Part shown: positions 10,879 to 29,077 of the stretch, piece after piece
Layout: each line of letters opens with the position of its first letter
Position numbering within the stretch: the stretch's first letter is position 1
Assembly (NCBI GenBank): GCA_020063185.1
Contig: JAGUUY010000214.1
Span: forward strand, 1-32,706
Reading direction: 5' to 3'
Origin: Bacillota bacterium
GTDB taxonomy: Bacteria > Bacillota > Desulfotomaculia > Desulfotomaculales > Ammonificaceae
Length of the DNA: 32,706 nt
The notes under the pieces: generated by a model
The model's database searches: none
Seen by the model: the letters and a program-made list of their open reading frames with translations, nothing else
Told to the model about the DNA's origin: nothing
Position numbers and translations under genes: made by a program

Positions 10879-13566
10879 TTGTCTAGAGAAATCACCTTAA
10901 TGATCAACACCCGGGAAATTACCGTGCAGGAGGGCAGCACCATTCTTCAAGCCGCCCGCAAGGCCGGTATTTATATTCCGACGCTTTGCGAAGATCCCGA
11001 GCTGACCCCCTGGGGCGGTTGCCGGCTGTGCATCGTGGAGGTGCGCGGCGCGAAAAACTTGCCGGCTTCGTGCATCACGCCGGTCAGACAGGGGATGGTG
11101 GTGGAAACGGAGAGTCCGGCGGTTCGCCACGCGCGGCGTACGTTGATCGAACTGCTCCTGGCGAACCATCCCGAGGACTGTCTGGCCTGCGAGCGGACGG
11201 GTGAGTGTGTCCTTCAGGACATGGCCTACCATTACGGCGTCAGGCGCACCAGCTTTGCCGGAAAGCGGCGCAGCTACGAAATTGAAAACGGTAACCCTTT
11301 TATTGTAAGGGACATGAATAAGTGCATCATTTGTGGGCTTTGCGTACGCGTCTGCAGCGAGATCGCGGGCCTGAGCATCATCGACTTTACGAATAGAGGC
11401 TTTAACACCAAAATCACACCGGCGATGGACCTGCCTCTTGAAAAATCGGACTGTGTTTTCTGCGGCAATTGTGTCGCCGTCTGCCCGGTAGGGGCGCTGG
11501 CGGAAAAACCGATCTGGGGTCAGGGCAGGCGCTGGGAAGTTAAAAAGGTTAGAACGGTCTGTCCATACTGCGGTACCGGCTGTTCTTTTGACCTGAACGT
11601 GAAGGAAAATCGCGTTATCGGTGTGAGTTCCACCACGGAAGCCGCGGTCAACGGGCGGTGGCTTTGCGTTAAAGGAAGGTTCGGTTTCGGCTTCATCCAC
11701 CACCGGGAACGGCTGCAAATGCCGCTCATACGCAGCCCGTACCTTTTCAGTAAGGTAACCTGGGACCGGGCGATCGACGTTGCAGTGGGGAAATTTAAAG
11801 CGATAAAGTCGAAATATGGTCCGGAAGCCATAGGTATACTAGCATCCGCACGCTGTACGAACGAAGAGAATTATTTACTTAATAAATTTGCCCGGGCGGT
11901 GATCGGCACCAACAACATCGACCACTGCGCCCGTCTCTGACATTCGCCGACGGTCGCCGGTCTGGCGGCAGCGTTCGGCAGCGGAGCAGCAACCAATACC
12001 CTCGCTGAAATTGAGGACGCCGATTTCATCCTGGTACTCGGCAGCAATACCACCGACACACACCCGGTGATAGCGATCCACGTGCAAAAAGCGCTGCGCA
12101 AAGGGGCAGTGCTCGCGGTGGTGGACCCGAGGCTTACGGAAATAGCCGCACGTGCCCATTATCACCTGCAGATTAAGCCCGGGACCGATATCGCGCTGCT
12201 TAACGGGCTGGCCAATGTAATTATCGCGGAAGACTTGTGGGATAAAGAATTTGTCGCCGGCCGTACGGAAAACTTTAAAGCTTTCGAGGACGTAGTAGGG
12301 GCTTATCCACCGGAAAAGGTAGTCCGGACCTGCGGTGTTTCGGAACAGATGTTAAGAGCGGTCGGCGTCGGTTACGCCGGGGCGCAAAAGGCGGTCATCC
12401 TCTATACCATGGGAGTGACCCAGCATACCTGCGGGACTAATAACGTAATGGCAGTTGCTAACCTGGCGATGTTGTGCGGCCACGTAGGTAAGGAATCCTG
12501 CGGCGTGTACCCGCTGCGGGGCCAGAATAACGTCCAGGGGGCTTGCGATATGGGCGCCCTGCCCGGTCTTCTTCCGGGCTACCAGCCTCTTAACGACCCC
12601 AAGGTGCGCGCCAAGTTCAAAGCGGCCTGGAACGCTCCGTTGCCCCGTAAAGAGGGCCTTACCGCACCCGAAATGTTTGAGGCGGCCGCGGAAGGCCGAA
12701 TAAAGGCGATGTATATCGTAGGGGAAAACCCGCTGCTCACGGAAGCTGACGGCAACATGGTCAAAAAGGCCCTGCAAAAACTGGAATTATTGGTAGTCCA
12801 GGACCTCTTCCTGACGGAGACTGCGCAGTATGCGCATGTTGTCCTGCCCGCGGCGAGTTTTGCCGAGAAAGAGGGTTCCTTTACCAACACTGAACGGCGG
12901 GTACAAAGAGTACGACAGGCAATCCCGCCTGTGGGAGAAGCAAAACCGGATACGGAAATCATTTGCCTGATGGCACGGGCCATGGGTTATTCGATGTGGT
13001 ACAGCTCGCCCATGGATGTGATGGCTGAAATAGCCAGTCTGACCCCGATTTACGGGGGTATTTCGTACGCGTACCTTGAGAAGGAAGGCCTTTTTTGGCC
13101 CTGCCCTACCCCCGGCCATCCCGGGACGAGGATTCTGCACCAGAAGCGTTTTGTACGGGGGAAAGGCATGTTCCACCCGGTTAGTTTTGTGCCACCCGAC
13201 GAGCAACCCGATTCGGAGTACCCGCTGCTGATGATCACCGGGCGGTACCTGACACATTACCATTCCGGATCGATGACCCGCAGAACACCGCTTGGTTTCT
13301 ACCAACAAACCTGGGTGGAATTGAACGGGGAAGACGCGGCACGCTTAGACATTAGTTTCCGGGACAGGGTGACCCTGACCTCCCGCTGGGGAACGGTGAA
13401 AATGATGGCGACAGTCAATGAGAACCTCCCCAGGGGGATTGTATTCGCCACGTTCCACTCCGCCGAAAACCCGGTCAATGTTCTGGTTGGTCCGTTGCGG
13501 GACCCGAGGGCCGGAATTCCCGCGTTCAAGGGCGTGGCCGTAAGGGTCGAAAAATCGACGAGATGA
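10879..13566 (+). CDS. fdhA: Selenocysteine-containing formate dehydrogenase catalytic subunit (full length, with Sec at TGA 11938-11940)
   Basis: Two ORF-track entries (10879..11940 and 12067..13566) are one frame: ...NNIDHCARL-[TGA]-HSPTVAGLAAAFGSGAATNTLAEIEDADF...; CARLUHSPTV is the known Sec motif of FdhA. N-terminal NuoG-like [2Fe-2S] ferredoxin and CPYCGTGC 4Fe-4S motif. Confidence 0.96.
11941..11969 (+). promoter_or_regulatory. Bacterial SECIS element of fdhA
   Basis: GTCGCC-GGTCT-GGCGGC hairpin (11953-11969, one G.U) 12 nt after the TGA; loop GGTCT matches the E. coli fdhF-type SECIS loop. Confidence 0.85.
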
Positions 13567-21168: not shown

Positions 21169-21254
21169 CCGACTGCATCACCCCGGCCTCCAACCTTTTA
21201 ATTCTCCAACCCTAAGAACAATAATGCCCCTCGGAAGGGGGCGGGAATCCTCCC

Positions 21255-21440
21255 ATTCCCTCCGCTGGAATTATCCAGTTCAGGTTCCAAGGGTAAAACC
21301 GGACATACTGAGGTGTAATCAGGAGTCTGGTTTTTCTCAGCCCGGCACTTGGTTATCGCGCGCACACCAGGTTGAGCGGACTTCCAAACGCGGCGTCGGA
21401 AGACGCAACGAAAATCCGGGTGCCGGACACCCCTATGGGG
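21255..21440 (-). promoter_or_regulatory. TPP riboswitch (THI element) upstream of thiE-thiC
   Basis: Minus strand: AGGGGTGTCCGGCAC ... GTGCCGGGCTGAGAAAAACCAGAC ... ACCCTTGGAACCTGAACTGGATAATTCCAGCGGAGGGA; conserved CTGAGA and ACCTGAACTGGATAATTCCAGCG. Confidence 0.93.
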
Positions 21441-23479: not shown

Positions 23480-24817
23480 CTAAAACTTCGTCAGGTACTC
23501 GGTGATCTCCCAGTCGTGGACCGTCGTCCGGTAACGGTCCCACTCGATTCTTTTGGCGGTAATGAACCGTTGAAATACATGTTCTCCCAATGCGTGGCGC
23601 ATTACCGGGTCACGTTCGAGTTCCGCGACGGCGTCATACAAATTGGAGGGCAAGGTATCTATCCCTTGTTCGCGGCGTTCGGCTTCACTCATTTCGTAAA
23701 TGTTCTGATCGCAGGGGGCTGGGGGTTCAATACCCTGTTCAATTCCCTCCAGACCCGCCTGCAGGCAGGCGGCCAGGGTGAGGTACGGGTTGCATGAAGG
23801 GTCCGGGCTCCGCAGTTCCAGGCGCGTGGACATGCCCCTTTTCGCCGGCACTCTAATGAGCGGACTCCGGTTACGGCAAGACCAGGCGATATAGACGGGG
23901 GCCTCGTATCCGGGGACAAGCCGCTTGTAGGAGTTGACGGTCTGGTTGGCCAGGGCCGTAATCGCCTTGATGTGTTTCAAAAGCCCACCCATAAAGTGGT
24001 AGGCCGTTTTACTTAGCTGCAGCGGTCCGTCAGGCTGATAAAAAGCGTTCTCCCCGTTTTTCATCAGTGAAAGGTTGGTATGCATCCCCGAACCGTTAAT
24101 CCCGAACACCGGTTTCGGCATAAAAGTGGCGTGCAAGCCGTGCTTTTGGGCGAGCGCCCGCACCACGAACTTGAAAGTCACGATTTTATCCGCGGTGTCC
24201 AGGGCGTCGGAGTATTTAAAGTCGATTTCATGCTGGCCCGGCGCCACCTCGTGGTGGGAAGCCTCGATTTCGAAGCCGAGTTTCTCCAACGTGAGTATGA
24301 TATCCCGCCGCGCTTCCTCGCCGAGGTCGACGGGGGCGAGGTCAAAATACCCGGCGCGGTCGTGCGTTCTGGTGGTCGGGCGGCCGTCGGCGTCCACGAG
24401 AAACAGGAAGAACTCGGCCTCCGGACCCGCGTGCATGGTATACCCTTGCTGTGCGGCGAGTCCGGTCGCCCGGCGCAGGATGTAGCGCGGGTCGCCGGCG
24501 AAGGGAGTGCCGTCCGGGTTGTAAATGTCACAGATGAGCCGCGCCACAGCGCCTCTCTCCGAGGAACGCCACGGAAAAATTACGAAGGTATTGGGATCGG
24601 GACGCAGGTACATGTCCGATTCCTCAATTCTTACAAAGCCCTCAATCGAAGAACCGTCAAACATGAGCTCACCCGCCAGGGCCTTATCGAGCTGGTCGAT
24701 AGGGATGGCCACGTTTTTTAACACGCCAAAAATGTCGGTGAACTGGAGGCGGATGAATTTTACGCCCTCATCGCGGGCGGCTAAAATAACGTCTTCTTTT
24801 AAAACTTGTTCCTTCAC
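23480..24817 (-). CDS. glnA: Glutamine synthetase type I
   Basis: [103 protein letters not shown]; catalytic residues intact. Confidence 0.97.
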
Positions 24818-25072: not shown

Positions 25073-25104
25073 TAAAAGGTCCGGTAAGTCTGTATAAACA
25101 AAGA

Positions 25105-25132
25105 GCCTCCGCAGTTCTTAACTGCCAGAGGC
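25105..25132 (-). other. Hairpin downstream of gltB-domain-2 gene
   Basis: GCCTC/GAGGC outer and GCAGTT-CTT-AACTGC inner stem. Confidence 0.6.
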
Positions 25133-25147
25133 GTCTTTGCCGCTTAT

Positions 25148-25168
25148 AAAAAGGTACAACGCTGTACC
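25148..25168 (-). terminator. Intrinsic terminator downstream of the GltB-domain-2 gene
   Basis: Minus strand GGTACA-GCGT-TGTACC followed by TTTTTAT. Confidence 0.7.
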
Positions 25169-25249
25169 CGTTTATATAGAGACCATTCAGCCTACCTCTT
25201 ACCGGTCAGGCTTCGGTCTTGTTTTGGATACATAAATTCACGCCTGAAA

Positions 25250-26839
25250 TTACCCGAGAATGAGCTCCACCTCTTCGGCGTCAACGTCCATTATATACCT
25301 TACGCCGGAAATTTCGGCCGCCTCGCGGGTAAGCGCCGCAACGTCGTCACGGTCGATGAGGTCCAGCCTGAACTTACGCGCGCCGCACATCAGTTGGCGC
25401 ATCCCCTGGGCAAGCCGCTGGAAATACGTGTAAACACCGACGGCGCCTATCGGCAGGCGCTTCAGGTCGTCGCCCAAAATCTTCTTAAGTTCGGTGGCGC
25501 CGATGAACACCTGGTCCACAGTGTCGCCGTACTTCTGGTATTCCGCGGCGACCTTTCCTTCTTTCAGCGCTTCACCTACGGTTTTGCCGACCATTGCGGC
25601 GGCAAGGGGAGCGCGGGCCAGCCCGACCGCTTTCATGTAAGGAGCGCCGATGGCGATGGCTTTAAAAACGTGGTCCTCCAGGCTGAAACCTCCGGCCATA
25701 GCCAGGGGCGGGAGGTACCTTCCCTTCTTTGCCAGGGTGTCCATGTAATTGGCGAGGAGGGCGTGAAGATAAAGTGTCGGTACGCCCCACTCGTTCATCA
25801 TCCGCCAGGGGCTCATCCCGGTGCCGCCGCCGGCGCCGTCAACCATAAGCAGGTCGAGCTTTGCGTCGGACGCGTATTTCACCGCACGCGCCAAATCGGC
25901 GGGACGGTAGGCGCCGGTTTTCAGGAAAATGTACTTTGCGCCCGCCCGGCGGAGTTCTTCCACGCGTTTCATAAAGGACTCCTGTTCCACCATCCCGATG
26001 CGGGAGTGCCGCTCGAACTCTTTAAAGGCGCCGGCTTCGAAAGCTGCCTGCACGGCGGGATCCTGGGGGTCGGGCAACACGATGTAGCCGCGGCTTTTAA
26101 GCTGCAGGGCGCGTTTGAGGGTGTTGAGTTTGACCTCACCGCCGATGTCTTTCGCGCCTTGTCCCCATTTCAGCTCTACCGTGGTGACGCCGAACTTATC
26201 GATAACCCACTCCTGGACGCCGAGCCGCGTGTCTTCGACGTTTGCCTGAACCGCGACGAAGCCCTCGCCGTTCGACCAATTTGTGTAGGATTTTATCCGG
26301 TCTTCCATGGCCGGTGATTTGACGATCCGGCCTTTTTTAATCTCCGCTTTCGGGTCCATGGCACAGACGTTTTCACCAATAATAATGCCTATTCCGGAAA
26401 TGGCGGCCCCGGCGGCCAGGTGACTCCAGTTATTGGCCGCTATGTTTGTGGACCCCATAGCAGCGATAACAATCGGGTAACGCAGTTTTAGACTACCGTC
26501 GGACCCGACGGCGCTTTGCAGGTCCACCACCGGGAAAATCGCCTTGTCCGGGTCGGGGTCGACACCGTGAGCGCCGACCGCAGTTCCCATAATGCTGAAG
26601 TGTGAATAGTCCACCGGATACTTCTTTTGCGACGCGGAAGTGGTTTTCCCGAAAGGCTGCGGGTAGAGCACCTCTTTGCCGCGAATCGCGGAGCGCCCGA
26701 CTTCGCACAGTCCGGGGCAGCCGTCTAAACATGTGACGCACATACCGCTCGCGGAACTCTGAGTGTGTGTACGCAGCTTGGTTAACGTGGCTGCGGAAGC
26801 GTTGATACCGAGACTATACATTGCTCCATCATCCTCCAA
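25250..26839 (-). CDS. Glutamate synthase FMN-domain protein (GltB domain 2, archaeal-type) with N-terminal Cys cluster
   Basis: CVTCLDGCPGLCEVGRSAIRGKEVLYPQPFG, GQGAKDIGGEVKLN, KYIFLKTGAYRPADLARAVKYASDAKLDLLMVDGAGGGTGMSPWRMMNEWGVPTLYLHALL. Likely start at MYSLGIN (internal ATG). Confidence 0.9.
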   Translation of the reverse strand: MEDDGAMYSLGINASAATLTKLRTHTQSSASGMCVTCLDGCPGLCEVGRSAIRGKEVLYPQPFGKTTSASQKKYPVDYSHFSIMGTAVGAHGVDPDPDKAIFPVVDLQSAVGSDGSLKLRYPIVIAAMGSTNIAANNWSHLAAGAAISGIGIIIGENVCAMDPKAEIKKGRIVKSPAMEDRIKSYTNWSNGEGFVAVQANVEDTRLGVQEWVIDKFGVTTVELKWGQGAKDIGGEVKLNTLKRALQLKSRGYIVLPDPQDPAVQAAFEAGAFKEFERHSRIGMVEQESFMKRVEELRRAGAKYIFLKTGAYRPADLARAVKYASDAKLDLLMVDGAGGGTGMSPWRMMNEWGVPTLYLHALLANYMDTLAKKGRYLPPLAMAGGFSLEDHVFKAIAIGAPYMKAVGLARAPLAAAMVGKTVGEALKEGKVAAEYQKYGDTVDQVFIGATELKKILGDDLKRLPIGAVGVYTYFQRLAQGMRQLMCGARKFRLDLIDRDDVAALTREAAEISGVRYIMDVDAEEVELILG

Positions 26840-27014: not shown

Positions 27015-28328
27015 TCATGGTAGGTAACGCTCAATTTCCCAAGGGTGAATCTCCGCCAGAAAGCTGTTCCACTCCCTTTCTTTTTGTTGAATGTAAAGCC
27101 CGTGTATTAATTCCCCCAGGGAAGCCTGCGCCCAGGCGTCGCCTTTCAGCGCTTCTATGGCCGCCCCAAGGTGCCGGGGAAGACTCTCCCGGGACTGCCG
27201 CCGGTCATCGCTCGACGGCTCGTCAACCACAAGCACGCCGCGGTCCAAAGCTTCGGAAACGGCTTCCATGCCGGCTTTGAGAAGCAGTGACAAAACCAGG
27301 TAGGGATTACTCGTGGCATCAGGAATCCAGTACTCAAGCGCGAGACCGTCTCCGGTGACCGCGGCCGCCAGCATGCCGGTTCTGTCATCCAGTGACAATC
27401 CGGCGTAGACCGGTGCAAGCCTGTCGTTAAGGTAAAGCCGTTTATAAGACATTACCGAGGGGCAGCTCAAAGCGGTTAAACTACCGGCGCGTCTTATGAT
27501 ACCCCCGGCAAAGGCGCGTGCGGTACCGCTCAGGCCCCATAAGTCATTCTCGTCAACAAAAAGGTTGCGGTCCTCTTCTCTAAGGGTAAGGAACAACGAA
27601 ATCCCCGCGCCGGGGTGTTCCTTAAAAGGTTTTGGTATAAACGACGCATACAGGCCATGACGTTGGGCGACGGATTGGATGACGAACTTGGAAGTGACGA
27701 TCTTGTCGGCCATTGCGGCCATAACGTCAGTTTTCAGGCAGATACGGTTCTTACCGGGTGCGCCGCCGTGGTGCGAGAAGGACACTTCGATGCCCATTTC
27801 ATCAAGGGTGTTGACCATGTCGCGCCGGGCGTTTTCCCCCATGTCCAGAGGTGTAAGGTCGCACAACCCCGCGTAATCCTGCGGCGTCAGAATCGGCCGG
27901 CCGCGTTCGTTAACGTGGAAAAGAAAGAAGTCGATCGCTGCGCCGACGGCCAGTTGTTGCGGCGTCCCGGTTTCGGCCGCCAGTTCCGCCAGCAGCCCGC
28001 GCGAGCAGCCCTTGAAAACCGCCCCCGTTCTGGTATAACCGTTACAGATCAATCTCGCCACAGCGCCGTCCCGCGGGCGCCAGGGAAACAGAATGAAAGT
28101 ATTATGGTCGGGCCGCAGGTAGACCTTTTCCTGCATCTCCGGCAAGCCGAAGACGGAACCGTCTACGACCACCTGGTCGGAGAGTACCCTGTCAAGTTCG
28201 GTTACCGGCAAGGCAAAATTTTTGAAGCGTCCAAAAACATCGGTAAACTGCAGCCTCAAGAAACGGACGTGGTGCTCCTGCACAAGTTCCCTGATGTCGG
28301 CTGAATAAGGCAATTTATACACCCCCAT
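27015..28328 (-). CDS. Glutamine synthetase-like protein with degenerate active site
   Basis: End-to-end similarity to the neighbouring GlnA (FLRLQFTDVFGRFKNFALPV..., [25 protein letters not shown]..., MSYKRLYLNDRLAPVYAGLS...) but catalytic residues replaced. ATG 28328 per ORF track; TTG 28313 with GGGGGTG upstream is an alternative start. Confidence 0.9.
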   Translation of the reverse strand: MGVYKLPYSADIRELVQEHHVRFLRLQFTDVFGRFKNFALPVTELDRVLSDQVVVDGSVFGLPEMQEKVYLRPDHNTFILFPWRPRDGAVARLICNGYTRTGAVFKGCSRGLLAELAAETGTPQQLAVGAAIDFFLFHVNERGRPILTPQDYAGLCDLTPLDMGENARRDMVNTLDEMGIEVSFSHHGGAPGKNRICLKTDVMAAMADKIVTSKFVIQSVAQRHGLYASFIPKPFKEHPGAGISLFLTLREEDRNLFVDENDLWGLSGTARAFAGGIIRRAGSLTALSCPSVMSYKRLYLNDRLAPVYAGLSLDDRTGMLAAAVTGDGLALEYWIPDATSNPYLVLSLLLKAGMEAVSEALDRGVLVVDEPSSDDRRQSRESLPRHLGAAIEALKGDAWAQASLGELIHGLYIQQKEREWNSFLAEIHPWEIERYLP

Positions 28329-28332
28329 CTAC

Positions 28333-28378
28333 AAAAAAACCCCTCCAGAGTTTCAGCATAAACCGAAACTCAGAGGGG
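28333..28378 (-). terminator. Intrinsic terminator immediately upstream of GS-like ORF (leader attenuator)
   Basis: Minus strand CCCCTCTGAGTTTCGGTTTATGCTGAAACTCTGGAGGGG then TTTTTTT. Confidence 0.88.
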
Positions 28379-28403
28379 ACGTCATTGCCCCAAAGCTATT
28401 TGG
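28375..28403 (-). promoter_or_regulatory. Candidate ANTAR dual-hexaloop antiterminator RNA
   Basis: Minus strand P1 CCAA-AUAGCU-UUGG then P2 GG(GG)C-AAUGAC-G(U)CCCC; both hexaloops have A1 and G4; P2 shares CCCC with the terminator 5' arm. Confidence 0.75.
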
Positions 28404-28441
28404 CGTAACCCGGTTAGATTCGAATCAATCCAACTAAAAAT

Positions 28442-28469
28442 ATTATAAACGGTGATGAACCAAAATCAA
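28442..28469 (-). promoter_or_regulatory. Predicted sigma-A promoter for the GS-like leader
   Basis: Minus strand TTGATT - 16 nt - TATAAT. Confidence 0.6.
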
Positions 28470-28492
28470 GCCGTTAGTCGAAAAAGTTTTAC

Positions 28493-29077
28493 TTAATTCT
28501 TCCCGAAAGACGCAATTATCTCCTTGGCAACCTTCGCCATCGGCTGTCTCCGGTTCATGCTCAGGTGCCGGATGTAACCGTAGGCTTCCCGTTCGGTCAT
28601 TCCTTTTTTTTCTTCGAGCAGACCGCGGGCCTGCTCTACGAGTCGCCGCTCCTGCAGGGTTTTTTGCAGTTTTATGTTTTCCCGCTCGATTGCCGTAAGA
28701 CGCTGGAAGTTCGCCACGGCTACCTCTACCGCTACAGCGACGTGATTTTCGTCGAAGGGCGGCTGGAGATAGGCCAGGACCCAGCCCTTTTTCGCATATT
28801 CAAGAATCGACGTTTCGCTCCGGGAATAGATGACCACGGCCATTAGCCTGTGGTCCTCTAAAATTTGGGCCGCACCGGCTCCCCCGTAATCGGGGAGAGA
28901 AGCGTCGATGATAAACACGTCCGGGTGGATCTCAAAAGCAAGGCGCAAAGCCGCGCGGGCTTCAGTGGCTACCGCCACCACGTTGTGCCCGAGGCGCATA
29001 AGAATATCACGTAGATGGACCCGCTCCGAGGGTTCCGCGATGGCAAGCAAAACCCGGTACCCGTACATGCGACTCAC
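28493..29077 (-). CDS. Receiver-ANTAR response regulator (RNA antiterminator)
   Basis: YRVLLAIAEPSERVHLRDILMRLGHNVVAVATEARAAL... receiver-like; C-terminal ANTAR LQERRLVEQARGLLEEKKGMTEREAYGYIRHLSMNRRQPMAKVAKEII. GTG 29077 with GGGAAGG SD preferred over ORF-track 29128. Confidence 0.93.
   Translation of the reverse strand: MSRMYGYRVLLAIAEPSERVHLRDILMRLGHNVVAVATEARAALRLAFEIHPDVFIIDASLPDYGGAGAAQILEDHRLMAVVIYSRSETSILEYAKKGWVLAYLQPPFDENHVAVAVEVAVANFQRLTAIERENIKLQKTLQERRLVEQARGLLEEKKGMTEREAYGYIRHLSMNRRQPMAKVAKEIIASFGKN

Follow-up and report, generated by a model that had tools for sequence, protein, structure and literature searches.

In the window, as we call the whole stretch of 32,706 nt that was analyzed (contig JAGUUY010000214.1, Ammonificaceae, order Desulfotomaculales), a gene for an ANTAR protein and a glutamine-synthetase-like (GS-like) gene are separated by a leader with a promoter, hexaloop hairpins and a terminator. 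This raises the question whether the leader works as an ANTAR-responsive attenuator and, if it does, whether two hexaloops take part, as the initial annotation proposed, or only one.

Architecture of the leader

All elements lie on the minus strand. A sigma-70 type promoter (28442-28469) consists of the -35 element TTGATT (28469-28464), a 16-nt spacer and the -10 element TATAAT (28447-28442). The upstream gene on the same strand, ANTAR1, ends at 28493, 24 bp upstream of the -35 element. Behind the promoter the hairpin GGGGC-AAUGAC-GUCCC (P2, 28376-28391) carries a hexaloop (28381-28386) with A at position 1 and G at position 4 (A1/G4), and its 3' arm serves at the same time as the 5' arm of an intrinsic terminator (28333-28380). 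The terminator stem runs from 28378 to 28340 and is followed by seven T at 28339-28333 (seven U in the RNA). Its fold of -27.0 kcal/mol (z = -6.5) is far above chance strength; a generic terminator scan overlooked it because the stem is interrupted, and it was found by folding. A further A1/G4 hairpin, CCAA-AUAGCU-UUGG (P1, 28390-28403, loop 28399-28394), is present in the sequence, and when the 36-nt segment was folded P2 was predicted and P1 left out. The promoter, both hexaloops, the strong terminator and the adjoining ANTAR gene are all located where the initial annotation had placed them, and the arm common to P2 and the terminator indeed makes the two folds mutually exclusive. In Rfam, searched at the gathering cut-off and at E <= 10, no relevant family was found for the leader.

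The putative controlled gene encodes the GS-like protein (27015-28328, minus strand; Pfam Gln-synt_C, 2.8e-69), and the next gene on this strand a protein with a glutamate-synthase FMN domain (25250-26839, minus strand; Pfam Glu_synthase, 2.4e-15). A scan for two A1/G4 hexaloops with an overlapping terminator returned the leader under study, the leader of glnA and one weak match in a coding sequence. The short P2 pattern was too unspecific for a genome-wide search, giving 35 matches and 32 in the control.

Conservation of P2 and the terminator in relatives

Orthologues of ANTAR1 are present in most of the 60 related genomes searched. Downstream of 28 ANTAR1 genes, the one in the window included, a sigma-70 promoter is followed after 17-64 nt by GGGC-AAnGnn-GUCC overlapping a terminator, and the gene after the leader is usually GS-like. 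From wider loci a set of 39 leaders was assembled, the window's and 38 from relatives, nearly all of them directly 3' of an orthologous ANTAR gene and nearly all with a promoter at the equivalent position. The ANTAR1 cluster retains a leader of this class also at L080, from which the GS-like gene has been lost, and at L062, where the leader has a new position.

Across the 39 leaders the P2 loop is invariant for A1 and for G4 (39/39 each), with A2 in 38 and C6 in 32. The pair 5-20 of P2 occurs as GC (19), AU (14), UG (1) and GU (2) and never as a mismatch. In 35 of 36 leaders the base common to hairpin and terminator finds a partner in either structure, and substitutions are compensated; the three-way combinations are G-C-G (19), A-U-A (9), A-U-G (4) and others, and covariation of the terminator reaches 0.530 versus 0.258 in shuffles. 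That this common base keeps its pairing speaks clearly for selection on both of the mutually exclusive folds. The reading as an ANTAR-type attenuator, in which a hexaloop hairpin competes with a terminator next to an ANTAR gene and in front of nitrogen genes, is therefore upheld by conservation with covariation.

An ordinary terminator of ANTAR1, followed by an unregulated gene and containing the hexaloop by coincidence, would also account for a strong stem about 110 bp past the ANTAR1 stop codon, and terminators are common. However, this leaves the promoter before the terminator and the gene after it, the invariant A1/G4 loop and the three-way covariation that keeps both folds without explanation, as well as the concentration of matches to the leader model described below in genomes with ANTAR genes. 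We regard it as very improbable.

Upstream of the promoter a palindromic TTGTATACAATAT-like sequence, absent in the window, was observed in many relatives, for example at L013, L016-L020, L022-L029 and L032. It is a candidate operator for some DNA-binding regulator.

One hexaloop or two

The window offers a standard for comparison. In front of glnA (23480-24817, minus strand; TIGR00653, E 1e-174, score above the curated cut-off), a canonical glutamine synthetase in which all catalytic residues are kept, lies a dual-hexaloop ANTAR leader (25116-25175, minus strand), by which glnA is presumably controlled, composed of P1 GGGUAC-AGCGUU-GUACCU and P2 GGC-AAAGAC-GCC with a loop-to-loop spacing of 25 and a terminator at 25104-25132 (minus strand, -16.9 kcal/mol).

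When the A1/G4 loops named in the initial annotation were compared in orthologous leaders, the loop of P2 held throughout whereas that of P1 did not. Defining P1 as a hexaloop [AG]..G.. on at least 4 bp at a spacing of 13-40, a rule that an unconventional P1 could escape, it was found in 4 of the 39 leaders (1.1 expected from shuffles), the window being one of the four. Among leaders upstream of glnA genes at the same loci it was found in 26 of 29 (1.3 expected), and there its helix covaries. The sister genome, whose ANTAR1 is 72% identical, has no P1 in its leader. The distance from -10 to P2 shrinks to 17-20 nt in several relatives, where P1 is impossible because the approximately 14 nt of RNA before P2 are too short for it.

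The P1 of the window is also energetically weak, with -1.4 kcal/mol. The two hairpins overlap, as had been pointed out initially, and two bases of the P2 stem are common to both; pairing of P1 costs P2 two base pairs and lets it drop from -6.7 to -0.1 kcal/mol. The linker is 0 nt and the spacing 13, compared to 17-25 in genuine dual leaders. Measured against the description of ANTAR target RNAs in PMC3369931, the leader has the A1/G4 hexaloop hairpin (AAUGAC in P2, conserved as above) and its overlap with an intrinsic terminator, but an upstream P1 of at least 3 bp separated by a linker is missing, as the linker is 0 and the hairpin unconserved.

Two covariance models were built, R1 from P2 and terminator of leaders of this class with P1 unscored, and R2 from dual leaders. 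In the window's genome R1 gave one strong match, the leader itself (E 2.5e-9), and R2 gave three, namely the glnA leader (E 4.7e-6) and two leaders at a second ANTAR gene. R2 did not match the leader under study when the genome of the window was searched at E <= 5, and over 41 loci it recovered many dual leaders and zero of the other class at E <= 0.1.

In the canonical dual arrangement an ANTAR protein would take AUAGCU first and AAUGAC next, with P2 shortened to 3 bp while P1 is paired. Two A1/G4 loops are indeed present here, and the dual form is the norm in the literature (PMC3369931, PMC8934654), with one such leader at glnA in the same window. Against this stand the lack of P1 in almost every relative, the sister genome included, the missing linker and short spacing, the unfavorable energies and the failure of R2 to match, and EutV already failed with a 3-nt linker (PMC3369931). 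We consider this arrangement unlikely, and the dual-hexaloop architecture claimed initially is not borne out. Because P1 is rare, has no room in several relatives and is energetically weak, we named the class solo and judge the P1 of the window to be most likely accidental and probably without function.

Within the order the second pair of the solo P2 stem is an invariant G.U, although the class was gathered by a rule that includes this pair. As a diagnostic mark it serves in this order alone, because G.U is found in dual leaders elsewhere. The missing P1 is not accounted for by a difference in P2 stability (solo -5.6, dual -6.2 kcal/mol). The search for a conserved P1 substitute upstream of solo P2 yielded only a weak excess of GTAAAT (7 versus 1.0 expected, unadjusted) and promoter-like words. 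One family (f29: L133, L134, L138, L152, L158, L163, L172) has a conserved segment CTGTTTGACACGGC...CACCAACAGTAAC upstream of solo P2, which could form a large hairpin that is not a hexaloop.

Co-occurrence of solo leaders and ANTAR genes

Of 399 genomes taken as a sample of the phylum, 87 had an R1 match. ANTAR genes were found in 83 of these 87 and in 120 of the 312 others (odds ratio 33, Fisher p 7e-24). Within the order five genomes lack ANTAR genes; R1 was absent in four of them and gave one weak match in the fifth. Of the 70 matches examined from outside the order, 45 have P2 and no P1, a count to be read with the training of R1 on solo leaders in mind. Genes after solo-type leaders beyond the order include ammonium transporters and glutamate dehydrogenase. 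Under the fixed rule seven distant matches have no A1/G4 P2, and the majority of these carry G as the first loop base; GAUGAC/GAUGAA-type loops, which have G1 and keep G4, were seen at L131, L136, L149, L166 and L188. This suggests that A1 is replaceable by G in some lineages.

Four genomes positive for R1 had no ANTAR match, as would be expected if P2 were the target of another, non-ANTAR RNA-binding protein or of a ligand acting as antiterminator. One of the four is, however, a terminator-only match. Moreover, the P2 loop AAnG(A/G)n is common to solo leaders and the canonical dual ANTAR leaders of the same loci, the leader adjoins ANTAR1, and the co-occurrence is strong, which leaves such a non-ANTAR antiterminator little credibility.

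The ANTAR proteins

ANTAR1 (28493-29068, minus strand) is predicted to be an RNA-binding protein with a pseudo-receiver and an ANTAR domain (Pfam ANTAR, 9.6e-18; Response_reg, 3.4e-7). The start is an ATG at 29068; a longer frame with a TTG start extends to 29128. The closest solved structures are Rv1626 and EutV. The EutV residues that contact RNA, taken from the structure paper (PMC8934654), namely R142, E146, E160, Y164 and M172, are kept in ANTAR1 and near invariant among its orthologues, as is appropriate for an ANTAR regulator.

The receiver is incomplete. The phospho-Asp is kept, but the acidic pair (D9 to I, D10 to A) and the conserved Lys (K104 to P) are gone, which sets the protein apart from phosphorylated two-component regulators of the EutV type. 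Receiver residues are incomplete also in most ANTAR1 orthologues and in ANTAR2. The regulation by a phosphorylated ANTAR protein assumed initially thus finds no backing in the receiver, and a switch by phosphorylation is improbable. Given the pseudo-receiver of ANTAR1, we favor a protein or ligand interaction as the probable signal, in the manner of AmiR and AmiC. AmiR, which is controlled by AmiC, likewise combines an ANTAR output with a receiver without phosphorylation residues.

The genome (1.94 Mb, 82% complete) contains a second ANTAR gene, ANTAR2, on another contig (C21). One dual leader lies upstream of ANTAR2 and another behind it, before a gene with an amidotransferase domain, and R2 matches near ANTAR2 were seen in many relatives. 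Since R2 matches upstream of ANTAR2 itself, autoregulation is suggested.

The GS-like protein

The initial term GS-like can be made more precise, in that the protein is a conserved glutamine synthetase paralogue which lacks key catalytic residues. For the roles of these residues we presume what is generally attributed to them in Salmonella numbering (flap E327, S53, metal ligands). In the window's protein the flap residue E327 is replaced by L, S53 by V, E129 by A, E131 by D, E212 by G, E220 by R and H269 by S; the other metal ligands are thus lost too. In the ANTAR1-linked paralogues (L053-L092) E327 and S53 are each missing from all 37 copies and E357 from 35 of them; all 61 other GS genes of the loci keep E327 and S53. 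With catalytic residues missing, the product does not conform to an active type I glutamine synthetase and is probably not a working enzyme; we hypothesize that it has a regulatory role.

Further features of the window

A candidate TPP riboswitch (RF00059, 39.6 bits, E 1.9e-6) lies before the ThiD2-ThiE gene at 21238-21379 on the minus strand; the match has long insertions and is under the Rfam gathering score of 54.3. In the gene for the formate dehydrogenase alpha subunit (10879-13566, plus strand) an in-frame TGA (11938-11940) is found within HCARL*HSPTVAG. Because this TGA falls at the usual selenocysteine site, the frame probably represents one selenoprotein rather than two genes.

Discussion

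Judged from sequence, the leader is likely to attenuate transcription in response to an ANTAR protein, by way of a single hexaloop. In the proposed mechanism, RNA polymerase would start at the TTGATT-16-TATAAT promoter and, by default, the nascent RNA would fold the terminator and transcription would stop before the GS-like and glutamate-synthase genes. An active ANTAR protein would bind the P2 hexaloop through A1 and G4; the bound 5-bp P2 would keep the strand GUCCC, so that the terminator is blocked and the operon transcribed. A second hexaloop would not be needed, and none is conserved. ANTAR1, about 100 bp upstream, is the likeliest binder, with ANTAR2 as the alternative.

In the dual-hexaloop RNAs of E. 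faecalis (eutP/eutG/eutS/eutA-EutV), nasF-NasR and amiE-AmiR, an A1/G4 hairpin likewise has a 3' arm that is the terminator's 5' arm, and an ANTAR gene and nitrogen genes are near. The class described here differs from these in its one hexaloop, its G.U second pair within the order and, in several relatives, a 5' leader too short for P1. ANTAR RNAs have been reported in Desulfotomaculum reducens and D. acetoxidans, presumably of the same order, at glutamate/glutamine synthase genes (PMC3369931, Fig. 9). The glnA leader of the window is of that dual kind, and the search in that study demanded two hairpins.

What counts against a solo reading is that antitermination by E. faecalis EutV required both hairpins and was lost on a change of the linker (PMC3369931, PMC8934654). 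Two hexaloops are considered necessary since P1 must recruit the protein before P2 is transcribed (PMC8934654). The same work, the only one on single-hexaloop ANTAR antiterminators that our literature search found, redefined the unit of binding to comprise one hexaloop and expected single-loop sites only where transcription sets no time limit. The single-hexaloop sites proposed for EutX/rli55 and mycobacterial RNAs (PMC8934654) resemble our leader in having one hexaloop as minimal binding unit; however, they were proposed for sequestering RNAs or situations without a time limit, whereas the loop in the window is located at a transcription terminator. The solo class at terminators would therefore be a variant unforeseen by the published dual-hexaloop model.

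A wider view is tentative and, on balance, rather doubtful: solo-hexaloop attenuators might be widespread in Bacillota, with an ANTAR dimer acting on one loop during transcription without a recruitment hairpin, and the dead GS might serve the pseudo-receiver ANTAR protein as its ligand sensor, reading the glutamine state in an AmiC-AmiR-like way and closing a feedback loop.

Conserved single-loop leaders at terminators and dual leaders lie side by side in these operon clusters and so provide a natural experiment on the two-hexaloop requirement. The ANTAR regulons for ammonium assimilation are probably larger than searches for two hairpins have shown, and leaders of ammonium transporter and glutamate dehydrogenase genes are among those that such searches would have passed over.
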